Positions 3,550-10,235 of a DNA stretch of 64,000 nt are shown piece after piece. The notes under the pieces were generated by a model. That model saw nothing but the letters and a program-made list of their open reading frames with translations. It had not been told where the DNA came from and ran no database searches. Location: positions 124,001-188,000 of the forward strand of contig JAQTZA010000004.1 in the NCBI GenBank assembly GCA_028687995.1. Direction: 5' to 3'. The stretch's first letter is position 1. Every line of letters begins with the position of its first letter. The position numbers and the translations under genes were made by a program. Origin of the DNA: Bacteroidales bacterium. Lineage in GTDB: Bacteria > Bacteroidota > Bacteroidia > Bacteroidales > UBA7332.

Positions 3550-3579
3550 ATATACTCTCTTTGCGGTTAATTAGATTAT

Positions 3580-3703
3580 TCGGTATATTTGTTGGCGGAA
3601 GATAATTCTTAATACAAAAGAAGCAGAATTACAATTGAAATCAGCGGAGTTAAATCTCGCTGACGTTCATCGCCATTGTGCGGTATATCCGAAGGAACGG
3701 GGG
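3580..3703 (+). repeat. Fold-back repeat, copy 1 (degenerate)
   Basis: The right half, 3640-3703, matches copies 2 and 3 (TCAGCGGAGTTAAATCTCGC, then GCGGTATATCCGAAGG-ACGGGG). The left half is strongly diverged; only GGTATATTTGTTGGCGGAA near 3582-3600 resembles it. It sits about 55 bases before the DUF3592 gene. Confidence 0.6.
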
Positions 3704-3757
3704 AAGCAGATATTAAATAAGAAATAAATCTCAGTACTAAATTAAATATATAAACTT

Positions 3758-4249
3758 ATGTCATCAGAATACATTTTTTATATACTGATTGTCTTTTGTG
3801 TTGGTTTTATAGTTATTCTATTTGGAATTTATTTAGCTGCAAAGTCAAGCGATACAAAAAAATGGCATGAAACAACAGGAGTTGTTTTAAAATCGGAATT
3901 AGAGAAAACAAGTACGGCAGCTGGATATGATGGAGAATCTCAATCCTTTAAAGCATCAATTGAATATAGATATAAAGTAGATAATCAAGAATATACTTCT
4001 AAGAGAGTTTTCTATGGAGATAATATTAGTTTACCTCTACCATTTAAATTTAAATCATTGATTAAACTATATTCAAAAGATTCTGAAGTAATTGTGTATT
4101 ACAATCCTTTAAAGCCCAAAGAATCAGTTTTACAAAAAGGTCTCAAATTTATTGTAATTGAGCTTTTTTTATTAGGTTGTTTCTTTATCCTATTTGGATT
4201 TGCAATTTTGAAATATGAAACAGCTATCAAATCTTTCTTTGCTAATTAA
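3758..4249 (+). CDS. DUF3592 family membrane protein
   Basis: A 163-residue protein with a transmembrane helix at about residues 5-28, an extramembrane beta-rich stretch (VEYRYKVDN-like, GDNI, VYYNP-KPKESVL) and a second helix at about 131-153, the layout of DUF3592 proteins. Function is unknown. Relatives are often found among immunity-type genes of polymorphic toxin loci, but that is context from other genomes. The gene has low GC compared with purF and lies between two copies of the fold-back repeat, as an isolated cassette with its own ~50-base AT-rich leader. Confidence 0.72.
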   Translation: MSSEYIFYILIVFCVGFIVILFGIYLAAKSSDTKKWHETTGVVLKSELEKTSTAAGYDGESQSFKASIEYRYKVDNQEYTSKRVFYGDNISLPLPFKFKSLIKLYSKDSEVIVYYNPLKPKESVLQKGLKFIVIELFLLGCFFILFGFAILKYETAIKSFFAN

Positions 4250-4410
4250 TTATTTTAACCCGTAGTGCGGTAATGTATCAGATTTGGTGATGACGATTCA
4301 AATAGTTGGTAATCAAATGATAATTGAAGAGTGGTGGGTAATGTACTCGCCATTCTTTGTTATAAGAGTTTAAAACAAAGAATATAGAAGCATTATGAAT
4401 GAGAATAACA
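4250..4410. other. Downstream flank of the DUF3592 cassette, no gene
   Basis: Non-coding. It contains the 18-mer GGTAATGTATCAGATTTG (4269-4286), which recurs exactly after the barstar-like gene (5110-5127), followed in both places by a similar but diverged AT-rich stretch before the fold-back repeat. The two cassette flanks therefore share ancestry. Confidence 0.6.
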
Positions 4411-4532
4411 CCCCGTACCGCCGGATATGAAGCCATAGAATAGTGATGTTGGTTGGCGGGAAACAAAGTTCAGTGGAGCTAAATCTCGCTAACCAACAAC
4501 ACGATTGTATGATATATCCGAAGGGACTAGGA
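4411..4532 (+). repeat. Fold-back repeat, copy 2
   Basis: About 93% identical by eye to copy 3. Nested arms: GGATAT (4423-4428) / ATATCC (4513-4518) and TGTTGGTT (4447-4454) / AACCAACA (4491-4498). The outermost arm CCCCGTACC / GGGACTAGG pairs at only 6 of 9 positions, unlike copy 3 where it is perfect. Confidence 0.85.
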
Positions 4533-4579
4533 GACATAAGAGACCATTATAAAACACTTAAAAAATTTAAATATTGATT

Positions 4580-5104
4580 ATGGCTAATTGGAAATGGGAT
4601 AGAAGTTATGATGAAGATGAAAGCTTAGATTGGACCATTATTCGTAATGGGCCAATTGTAAAATATTTTTCATCGGACATCTTAGAACAACACATTGTAG
4701 ATTTGAAAAAAATGCGATATCAAGTAGTTGATGTGTCAGTTTCTACATGGACAAAAGATAATGCACATAGAAAAATCCGTGAGGCATTTGATTTTCCCGA
4801 GTATTATGGGGAGAACTCCGCAGCATTCGGGGATTGTTTAGATGATATGTTTAACAGAAAATATATTGGTTTGGTGATTGTATTTCGCCATTTTGATAAT
4901 TTTTATTCTAAAGAACAAGATTTTAGCGAGGCATTGCTTGATTCCATTTTTGGGGTAACATGGGCTTGGCTACTTACTGGACAGAAGCTAATTACTATTA
5001 TTCAATGCGAGAATCCCGACTTTGAAACAAATAAGGTAGGAGGATTTGTGCCTTCTTGGAATGGTTGGGAATGGTTAAATAGTAGGCGTGAGAAGAAGAA
5101 GTAA
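4580..5104 (+). CDS. Barstar-like (barnase inhibitor) family protein
   Basis: About 174 residues. The central segment KDNAHRKIREAFDFPEYYGE and the following ALGDCL-like NSAAFGDCLDDM is the hallmark of the barstar family, whose founder binds and blocks the RNase barnase. The protein is nearly twice as long as classic barstar (~90 residues), with extra N- and C-terminal parts. No barnase-type RNase gene is nearby, so it is an orphan inhibitor or an immunity cassette. ATG at 4580 is chosen; a TTG two codons earlier is possible. The gene lies between fold-back repeats 2 and 3 and has an AT-rich leader of about 47 bases after copy 2. Confidence 0.75.
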   Translation: MANWKWDRSYDEDESLDWTIIRNGPIVKYFSSDILEQHIVDLKKMRYQVVDVSVSTWTKDNAHRKIREAFDFPEYYGENSAAFGDCLDDMFNRKYIGLVIVFRHFDNFYSKEQDFSEALLDSIFGVTWAWLLTGQKLITIIQCENPDFETNKVGGFVPSWNGWEWLNSRREKKK

Positions 5105-5171
5105 AATTTGGTAATGTATCAGATTTGCCGATAATACTTTAAGTGGTTGAAAATAAGCAATAATCAGTAAA

Positions 5172-5300
5172 CCCCGTCCCGCCGGATATGAAGCCATAGA
5201 ATAGTGATGTTGGTTGGTGGGAAACAGAGTTCAGCGGAGCTAAATCTCGCTAACCAACAACACCATTGTACGGTATATCCGAAGGGACGGGGAGTTTTTT
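5172..5300 (+). repeat. Fold-back repeat, copy 3, ending as a terminator
   Basis: Perfect outer arms CCCCGTCCC (5172-5180) / GGGACGGGG (5284-5292), then GGATAT / ATATCC across a 3-base internal loop, then TGTTGGTT (5208-5215) / AACCAACA (5252-5259). The right arm runs straight into AGTTTTTT, so as RNA it could act as a rho-independent terminator for the barstar-like gene. Confidence 0.85.
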
Positions 5301-7760: not shown

Positions 7761-10235
7761 ATGGAAAACTTCCCTCACTTTGTCGATGTCATACTACCAC
7801 TGCCCTTGCCGCGATATTTTACCTATTCGCTGCCCGAAGAGTTGTGGGAATCGGTGCATGTAGGCAGTCGGGTAATCGTTCCATTTGGCAAACGGAAGTT
7901 CTATACCGCTATCGCCGTCAATATTCACTACAGCGCGCCCGAAGAGTACGAAACCCGCGATGTGGTGTCGGTGCTCGACCATGCGCCGATTGTCCGTCAG
8001 CTGCAAATCAAGTTTTGGGAGTGGCTTGCCGATTATTACCTCTGCTCGGTAGGGGATGTCTATAAAGCAGCTTTGCCTTCGGGTTTGAAGCTCGAGAGCG
8101 AAACATTGCTCCTGCTCAATCCGAATGCTGAGATAGAACCGGATTCACTTTCGCCGAAAGAGATTTTGGTGATAGACAAACTTCCTGCAGACGAAAAAAT
8201 AAGCATTATCGAACTTGAGAAAGAGACCGGACTGAAAAACCTGCTTCCTGTGCTCAACGGTTTGCTCGAAAAGGAGATTCTACTCATCAGTGAGCAGATG
8301 AAAGCCGATTTTCGACCCAAACTGGAGCAATATGTTCGTCTCACGTTGCAAACCGACGAGCAAGATCGATTGAGAACACTTTTTGATGAATTATCGAAAG
8401 CACCCAAACAGCTCAATGTATTGCTCAAATACCTCGACTTGTCTCACTTTTTACAACCCAAAGAGACTCTGCGCGAAGTCAATCGCAAAGAGTTGTTGAA
8501 ACAGGCCGATGCTACTGCCGCTGTGCTAAAAGCCTTGGTAGATAAAGGGATTTTCGAAGCTTATACCAAAGAGAAAACACGACTATCGACCTACAGGCGT
8601 GAGACGGTGGATGCGATGTCGCTCAACGAACCACAGCGCAAAGCTTATGATGAAATTCATGCACAATTTTCAGAAAAAGAGACTGTTTTGCTACACGGAG
8701 TCACCTCCAGCGGCAAGACCGAACTATATATTCACCTGATACAAGAGCAACTCCAACAAGGCAAACAGGTGCTCTATCTTTTGCCCGAAATTGCCTTGAC
8801 AACTCAACTCACCGACCGCTTGCAGCGTGTGTTTGGCAATCGATTGGGCATCTATCACTCCAAATTTTCGGACAACGAACGGGTGGAAATTTGGAACAAC
8901 TTGTTGCAAGAGAAAGGTTACGATGTCATCCTTGGGGTGCGGTCGTCTGTCTTTTTACCGTTTCGCAATTTGGGATTGATTATCGTGGACGAAGAGCACG
9001 AGAATACCTACAAACAGCAAGATCCTGCTCCTCGCTACCACGCCCGCAGTGCTGCACTCGTGTTGGCTTCGATGCACAAAGCGAAAACGCTGCTCGGCAC
9101 CGCCACTCCTTCCATCGAGAGTTATCACCTCGCTTTGCAGGGAAAATTCGGATTGGTGGAGCTTAACGAACGATACGAAGGACTTCAATTGCCAGAGATT
9201 ATACCAGTCGATACCAAAGAATTGCGCCGCAAGAAGCGAATGAACGGAACATTCTCCCCACTTTTGGTGGAGAAGATAGGAGAGGCATTAGCCAAAAAAG
9301 AGCAAGTGATACTCTTTCAGAACCGCCGCGGATTTGCACCCATGATGGAGTGCAAGCAGTGTGCCTGGGTGCCCAAATGCAAAAATTGTGATGTAAGCCT
9401 CACCTACCACAAATTTCAATATCAGCTCACGTGCCACTATTGCGGATTCGTGCAGCCGATACCCAAAAGCTGTCCGGCGTGTGGAAATACCTCACTCGAA
9501 ATGCGTGGTTTCGGCACCGAGAAGATTGAAGACGAAATCAAGGAGCTATTTCCCGATGTTTCGGTCGGTCGCATGGATCTCGACACCACCCGCACCCGTA
9601 AATCGTATGAGCAACTGATTCGCGATTTTGAACAACGGAAGACCAAGATTCTAATAGGCACGCAGATGGTGTCGAAAGGTCTCGATTTTGATAATGTGAG
9701 CGTGGTGGGTATTATCAGTGCCGACTCGATGATGAATTTCCCCGACTTTCGTTCCCACGAGCGGGCATATCAACTGATGGTGCAGGTGAGTGGTCGTGCA
9801 GGTCGCAAAAACAAACGGGGAACGGTCGTTTTGCAGTGTTCCGACGAGGCGCATCCTGTCATTCGGCAGGTGATTGCGAGCGACTACAAATCGCTCTACG
9901 AAACTCAATTGGCAGAGCGACAACTGTTTCGCTACCCGCCGTTTTATCGCTTGATTTATATCTATCTAAAACACCGCAACGAACCTCTCCTGATCCAAAT
10001 GGCGGATGTGATGGCAGCCAAGTTGCGCACAATCTTCGGTGAGCGCATCTTAGGTCCCGACAAACCACCGGTGGCACGCATTCAGAATTTCTATATCAAA
10101 AAGATTGTGGTAAAAGTGGAGCAACAAGCCTCGTTGCCTCGGGTGAAAGAGCTGCTGCGCCAAGTGCAAAAAGAGATTCTGGAGACCGAAGGTTTCAAAT
10201 CTGCCCTCGTCTATTACGATGTGGATCCGATGTAA
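7761..10235 (+). CDS. priA: Primosomal protein N' (replication restart helicase)
   Basis: 3'-to-5' DNA helicase that reloads the replisome at stalled forks. Start at 7761 is chosen because the family opens with FVDVILPLPL and the seven codons before it carry the -7 box. Visible: N-terminal 3'-OH-binding domain (1-~105), Walker A GVTSSGKTE near residue 312, DEEH box near 408, then eight cysteines of the zinc module (CKQC...CKNC...CHYCG...CPACG, about 530-575) and GTQMVSKGLDF with the arginine-finger segment GRAGR. Length of ~824 residues is normal. A terminator follows. Confidence 0.96.
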   Translation: MENFPHFVDVILPLPLPRYFTYSLPEELWESVHVGSRVIVPFGKRKFYTAIAVNIHYSAPEEYETRDVVSVLDHAPIVRQLQIKFWEWLADYYLCSVGDVYKAALPSGLKLESETLLLLNPNAEIEPDSLSPKEILVIDKLPADEKISIIELEKETGLKNLLPVLNGLLEKEILLISEQMKADFRPKLEQYVRLTLQTDEQDRLRTLFDELSKAPKQLNVLLKYLDLSHFLQPKETLREVNRKELLKQADATAAVLKALVDKGIFEAYTKEKTRLSTYRRETVDAMSLNEPQRKAYDEIHAQFSEKETVLLHGVTSSGKTELYIHLIQEQLQQGKQVLYLLPEIALTTQLTDRLQRVFGNRLGIYHSKFSDNERVEIWNNLLQEKGYDVILGVRSSVFLPFRNLGLIIVDEEHENTYKQQDPAPRYHARSAALVLASMHKAKTLLGTATPSIESYHLALQGKFGLVELNERYEGLQLPEIIPVDTKELRRKKRMNGTFSPLLVEKIGEALAKKEQVILFQNRRGFAPMMECKQCAWVPKCKNCDVSLTYHKFQYQLTCHYCGFVQPIPKSCPACGNTSLEMRGFGTEKIEDEIKELFPDVSVGRMDLDTTRTRKSYEQLIRDFEQRKTKILIGTQMVSKGLDFDNVSVVGIISADSMMNFPDFRSHERAYQLMVQVSGRAGRKNKRGTVVLQCSDEAHPVIRQVIASDYKSLYETQLAERQLFRYPPFYRLIYIYLKHRNEPLLIQMADVMAAKLRTIFGERILGPDKPPVARIQNFYIKKIVVKVEQQASLPRVKELLRQVQKEILETEGFKSALVYYDVDPM

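Follow-up and report, generated by a model that had tools for sequence, protein, structure and literature searches.

Do small genes separated by copies of a folded repeat form an array of integron-type cassettes, or have mobile elements come to lie between unrelated genes? The question is raised by a short region (3575-5292) of a 64,000-nucleotide stretch of Bacteroidales bacterium DNA, referred to here as the window (assembly GCA_028687995.1, contig JAQTZA010000004.1, positions 124,001 to 188,000), in which co-oriented short genes of low G+C content are accompanied by conserved intergenic sequence (Table 1). The original prediction described two nested fold-back repeats of about 121 bp and a decayed third copy flanking a DUF3592 and a barstar-like gene, and our analysis confirmed this layout. 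The complete repeats were 93% identical over 124 nt (4410-4533 against 5171-5294), the value first proposed, and both fold as long bulged hairpins with RNA z-scores of -9.0 and -6.6 against dinucleotide shuffles; folded as DNA, copy 3 gave z-scores of -6.5 on the + strand and -5.3 on the - strand. Copy 1, left over from the right-hand side of a longer form, is indeed decayed: it showed no folding excess over dinucleotide shuffles (z -0.35), and within it 3641-3702 corresponds to the right half of the repeat (62 nt, 85% identity to copy 3). A profile search of the window proteins bore out both gene identities, each match exceeding its Pfam cut-off, and the G+C content of both genes lies below that of purF (44%).

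Table 1 Features of the array at 3575-5292 of the window
Feature	Position	Strand	Description
Copy 1	3575..3702	+	Right-hand part left over from a full-length element, with its RE arm at 3667-3702 (found at 4 edits)
DUF3592 membrane protein gene	3758..4249	+	163 aa, 27% G+C, Pfam PF12158, E 1.6e-12
18-mer GGTAATGTATCAGATTTG, first copy	4269..4286	+	Start of a different dispersed repeat family of ~78 bp
Copy 2	4411..4532	+	121-bp internally deleted element; LE 4411-4449, RE 4496-4531
Barstar-like gene	4580..5104	+	174 aa, 36% G+C, Pfam PF01337, E 2.1e-12
18-mer GGTAATGTATCAGATTTG, second copy	5110..5127	+	
Copy 3	5172..5292	+	121-bp internally deleted element; LE 5172-5210, RE 5257-5292

The 18-mer said to be shared by the two units is real, but it lies outside the element and opens a separate dispersed repeat of about 78 bp, the GGTAATGTATCAGATTTG family, which is represented in the window's own genome (G000) by about 9 long copies as well as several short matches. 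Members of this family (G000:C3:597619-597834, C24:156992-158279 and others, in addition to 4269 and 5110 in the window) are often found just past stop codons and sometimes in tandem. A reading of the 18-mer as the tail of an RHS gene (reading frame GNVSDL) was rejected in favour of its membership of this family.

The prediction had proposed a BLAST search for the repeat in Bacteroidota genomes. Copy 3 recovered 49 pieces in G000, far more than chance would give, distributed over most contigs, partial copies giving best E-values between 1e-14 and 1e-23. Among 59 relatives, the repeat was restricted to two genomes of the same genus, G001 and G002, in which a G001 query found 18 and 11 pieces respectively; none was detected in the 57 others. 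One LE motif searched against 84,980 species genomes matched a single Bacteroidota MAG, in a set from which records very near the window were possibly omitted. The element was defined by two arms, LE (CCCCGTCCCGCCGGATATGAAGCCGTAGAA...) and RE (...TGTGCGGTATATCCGAAGGGACGGGG), and its ends are CCCCGTC/GACGGGG. As a control, the same arm search on a shuffled window returned a single match, at the loosest threshold. In G000 it identified 11 LE-RE pairs, made up of eight full-length copies (209-278 bp), one copy of 106 bp and the two 121-bp window copies, beside 27 single arms. When the 121-mer was used as a query, left-half matches covered positions 1-72 and right-half matches positions 60-121, and the 13-mer TCAGCGGAGCTAA (5231-5243 in copy 3) occurs in both halves of longer copies. 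The overlap of these matches indicates that the 121-bp form is an internal deletion joined at TCAGCGGAGCTAA. In G001, the final base of contig C4 is also the final base of an RE (locus L076, G001:C4:393883) and contig C9 stops near an element locus (L147), so that copy numbers in draft genomes are probably underestimated.

Several further properties of the family were sought. No compensatory change between the LE and RE of one copy was detected (4195 of 20000 permutations reached the observed mean), and the two arms of one copy match no better than arms taken from different copies. A sigma-ABfr-like promoter within the element is not claimed, since the strict motif was present in only 1 of 11 copies. 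Candidate target-site duplications were better explained otherwise: a 171-bp repeat around the L148 element corresponds to paralogous 3' flanks that also surround a G001 gene, and duplicates of 257 bp (L034) and 66 bp (L036) are paralogous gene remnants. A clean empty site with both flanks was not found for any of these elements. A separate repeat family, similar to L153:6474-6705, forms a clean 388-bp insertion in G002 (L150:6723-7110), with an exactly contiguous empty site in G001 (L132:6888).

The sister species G001 pointed to the origin of the repeat. At two G001 loci, L129 (4925-5695) and L075, a RAYT gene is enclosed by LE and RE; the loci share a 771-bp block of 86% identity running from the start of LE to the end of RE in otherwise unrelated surroundings. 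A common block bounded by LE and RE at unrelated loci indicates an autonomous element with the ends of the window repeat. The protein encoded at L075 exceeds the cut-off score of the NCBIfam model NF047646 (REP-associated tyrosine transposase). Its L129 counterpart shares 97% identity with it, and MSNHLH, FWQ and YIHNNP, corresponding to the NHLH, WQ and YIHNNP motifs, are present in both. A third G001 copy (L130) is broken by an in-frame stop. The alignment of non-autonomous copies with the transposase-bearing element extends to the start codon of the latter, and we therefore regard these shorter elements as deletion derivatives. Both a RAYT gene between the same terminal sequences and many dispersed copies of these ends per genome mark it as a TIRtron/REPtron-like family of RAYT-mobilised elements. 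Another group of RAYTs in G001 (L127, L128 and L131), 73-80% identical among themselves, is devoid of LE and RE ends.

Very probably, then, the repeat is a MITE-like, non-autonomous form derived from a RAYT element (LE-transposase-RE) of the IS200/IS605-related HUH Y1 class; it would be moved by RAYT, and its RE may be active in recombination. The 209-278-bp copies carry no transposase gene, and still more of the element is missing from the 121-bp copies. One suggestion of the original prediction, that the fold-back repeat is mobile and that the factor moving it is encoded at another place, agrees well with these data, the factor being the RAYT found between the same ends in G001.

RAYTs are usually described as domesticated single-copy genes, and the route by which REPs spread is unresolved. 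On its motifs, the G001 transposase can provisionally be placed in RAYT (TnpA-REP) subclass 2.6, or Bertels group 5, a Bacteroidetes group characterised by NH[LIV]H, WQ and YIH[QN]NP (PMC6006769). Subclass 2.6 genes are described there as lying between 'atypical secondary structures' that recur at other places in the genome, and the elements studied here share the NHLH/WQ/YIHNNP motifs, the Bacteroidota host and the structured flanks with dispersed copies. They differ from the subclass as described there in having internal-deletion derivatives and RE-anchored gene turnover. They also differ in that the G001 transposase gene is found with its ends at three loci of one genome, one of them broken, whereas according to PMC8266576 there is no evidence that RAYT genes are mobile. 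TIRtrons (PMC3733652) are similar in having long inverted ends around a RAYT-like gene and moderately abundant end-derived repeats; in contrast, the ends described here are modules of about 100 nt with inner hairpins, the copies keep both ends and a spacer in the manner of MITEs, and the element is genus-restricted among the genomes searched. As in REPINs and BIMEs, an inverted pair of palindromic units is moved by RAYT, but the elements measure 121-278 bp rather than consisting of pairs of 20-40-nt REPs, and the GTAG foot of the REP/REPIN palindrome was not found, the ends being CCCCGTC..GACGGGG.

Neither an intact LE-RAYT-RE element nor the cognate RAYT was found in the window's own genome, where only an N-terminal relic of 172 bp was detected (L039:9558-9729). 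The relic matches the L129 element from the first base of LE (80% identity, E 2e-36) and runs up to and into the RAYT start, reading MNIANRITGEVWFV. It interrupts an IS1 transposase gene after GAGCTAT, and intact IS1 paralogues read through this position. The two RAYTs that are intact in G000 share about 50% identity with the cognate one, and the repeats on their flanks are of another family. These two genes (L032:6188-6772 and 9067-9651, G000:C3:341-345 kb) are 95% identical to each other, and their flanking repeats (CGTAGCGAGGACGCTACGCCAAACGA / GCAAGCGAGGACGCTTGC) are also found beside other G000 loci. Since no intact cognate RAYT was found in G000, the copies in the window have probably lost their mobility or depend on one of the two other RAYTs.

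The position of the elements relative to genes was strongly biased: LE lay behind the 3' end of a gene in the same orientation in 24 of 27 cases, and RE lay ahead of one in 17 of 20, giving the arrangement gene-LE..RE-gene. LE usually comes after a stop codon, copy 3 ends in a T run and an Rfam search with the repeat found no family near its gathering score, all of which is compatible with plain transcription terminators or structured RNA leaders that drift and duplication have spread without active movement. We consider this extremely unlikely as an origin, since one copy is inserted within the IS1 gene and a parent element with identical ends carries a transposase; the mobile elements could act as terminators as well.

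Small unknown proteins lie beside the elements, as do Imm27 and RHS proteins, one of the latter with a Tox-MPTase3 tip; ilvC, galK and glycosidases, named from their sequences, are also neighbours. At L034:8128-10275, an N-truncated RHS protein with a Metallopeptidase toxin 3 domain at its end lies downstream of an RE end. The expectation that the repeats flank unrelated short genes was consequently borne out in part: small unrelated genes do lie between co-oriented elements, but copies also stand beside ordinary genes. An integron, or a CALIN array with unusual attC sites, would account for co-oriented short genes separated by imperfect hairpins of about 120 bp, and integron gene cassettes share the array look and the folded repeat after each gene. 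The elements nevertheless end in CCCCGTC/GACGGGG and not in RYYYAAC/GTTRRRY, none of the genome's seven tyrosine recombinases (Phage_integrase matches) is on the window contig C23, copies stand singly beside housekeeping and catabolic genes, and the ends are common to a RAYT element. An integron origin is on this evidence next to negligible in probability, and attC sites served by an integrase were discarded as a reading, with no core sites in the ends of any copy. The observation that the repeat does not match attC and that no recombinase is visible was therefore correct, and the idea of an integron-type array with variable cargo is supported only as a description: unrelated small genes lie between co-oriented elements, and one such gene differs between G001 and G002.

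The array also resembles the rAID arrays of Bacteroidota (PMC12247911), with co-oriented short genes of low G+C content belonging to immunity-like families and conserved intergenic sequences, and Imm27 and the RHS protein with the Tox-MPTase3 tip adjoin other copies of the element. The published definition places a tyrosine recombinase upstream of the array (PMC12247911), and no such gene is adjacent here. In addition, the separators are transposable elements, found genome-wide and not bound to one array. That the window holds a rAID array is thus very unlikely.

Comparison with relatives was to show whether single units are present or absent. Around the window array, purF synteny was compared with G001, G002 and G003; the downstream region differs and offers no simple empty site. 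A homologue of the barstar-like gene was not found in G001-G003. DUF3592 has a single homologue each in G001 and G002, at another chromosomal place and again adjoining these elements. G001 and G002 can be aligned with each other at about 95%; the G002 assembly has 830 contigs and 8% contamination, so a chimeric contig is possible for single events. In one array, an element (E1) is 100% identical in the two genomes and homology stops exactly at the end of its RE. To the right, a truncated element and a 157-aa gene follow in G001, and in G002 the short tail of a gene, a gene of 174 aa and one more fragment; the two genomes align again from the element that follows the replaced stretch. The same position is thus occupied by gene X with element E2x in G001 and by gene Y with element E2y in G002. 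E2x and E2y are 76% identical, like unrelated copies, compared with 96-100% for orthologous elements, indicating that they are different copies, and E2y is joined to the final ~19 bp of an E2x-type RE. The proposed comparison accordingly revealed a gene between two elements that differs between relatives, but no clean empty site with both flanks.

Two other loci behaved similarly. At L135/L142 the element is conserved and gene-tail lengths differ immediately after RE, G002 being 186 bp shorter, and at L076/L148 G002 lacks a 2.6-kb segment that in G001 follows RE directly and carries a gene for a 640-aa secreted protein. Within each genome, RE was followed within 8 nt by an N-truncated homologue, i.e. 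the C-terminal part of a gene that is longer elsewhere, in 4 of 31 cases, compared with 48 of 1920 random intergenic positions; on the LE side this pattern was seen in 1 of 47 cases, the IS1 insertion. Open frames across RE junctions were no commoner than at random intergenic positions. Sequence up to RE is therefore conserved between G001 and G002, and sequence to the right of RE is replaced, deleted or truncated, which suggests RE-anchored deletion or strand transfer by RAYT.

These junctions bear on whether a gene and its element are inserted or exchanged as one unit at RE, as in an integron, by RAYT or another recombinase. The different units at one position (X with E2x, Y with E2y), the divergence of E2x from E2y, the left breakpoint exactly at the RE of E1, the fusion of E2y to the RE tail of E2x and the presence of DUF3592 once per genome, at different loci but always beside elements, would all fit such a cassette system. 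A longer ancestral array followed by three RE-anchored deletions suffices to explain the same facts with no gene insertion. At several junctions, what adjoins RE is a partial gene tail or a 3' flank rather than a complete unit, and no unit was seen duplicated at two loci. We thus view a cassette system as rather doubtful, and cassette-like turnover based on RAYT, in which a small gene with its folded element is gained or lost at RE and immunity-like arrays are reshuffled with no integrase, as an equally tentative proposal.

Collectively, the data presented indicated that the window holds a real array of RAYT-mobilised fold-back elements rather than integron cassettes, and mostly explain it. 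In the mechanism that we favour, RAYT would act on the folded single strand and move elements between genes, leaving small genes separated by co-oriented copies. The RE end may also be active in recombination in place: were RE cut and rejoined to a site downstream, the right flank would be deleted or replaced while the left flank stays, and repeated events of this kind could produce arrays whose small genes turn over like cassettes.

RAYT elements as such are already known; a RAYT moving as a unit and the RE-anchored turnover of small-gene arrays appear to be new, as judged from full-text searches of open-access literature and from passages of PMC3733652, PMC6006769 and PMC8266576. What remains surprising is that RAYT elements have travelled as units and that small genes were replaced or lost again and again at junctions formed by the right ends of these elements. 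A RAYT element moved as a unit, its internal-deletion derivatives and a recurring one-end junction can here be followed in two sister species that are comparable base by base. How immunity-like arrays of this type change content is a question left open by the rAID literature, and RE-anchored rearrangement, if true, would provide an integrase-free route for such change in arrays of small immunity-like genes.
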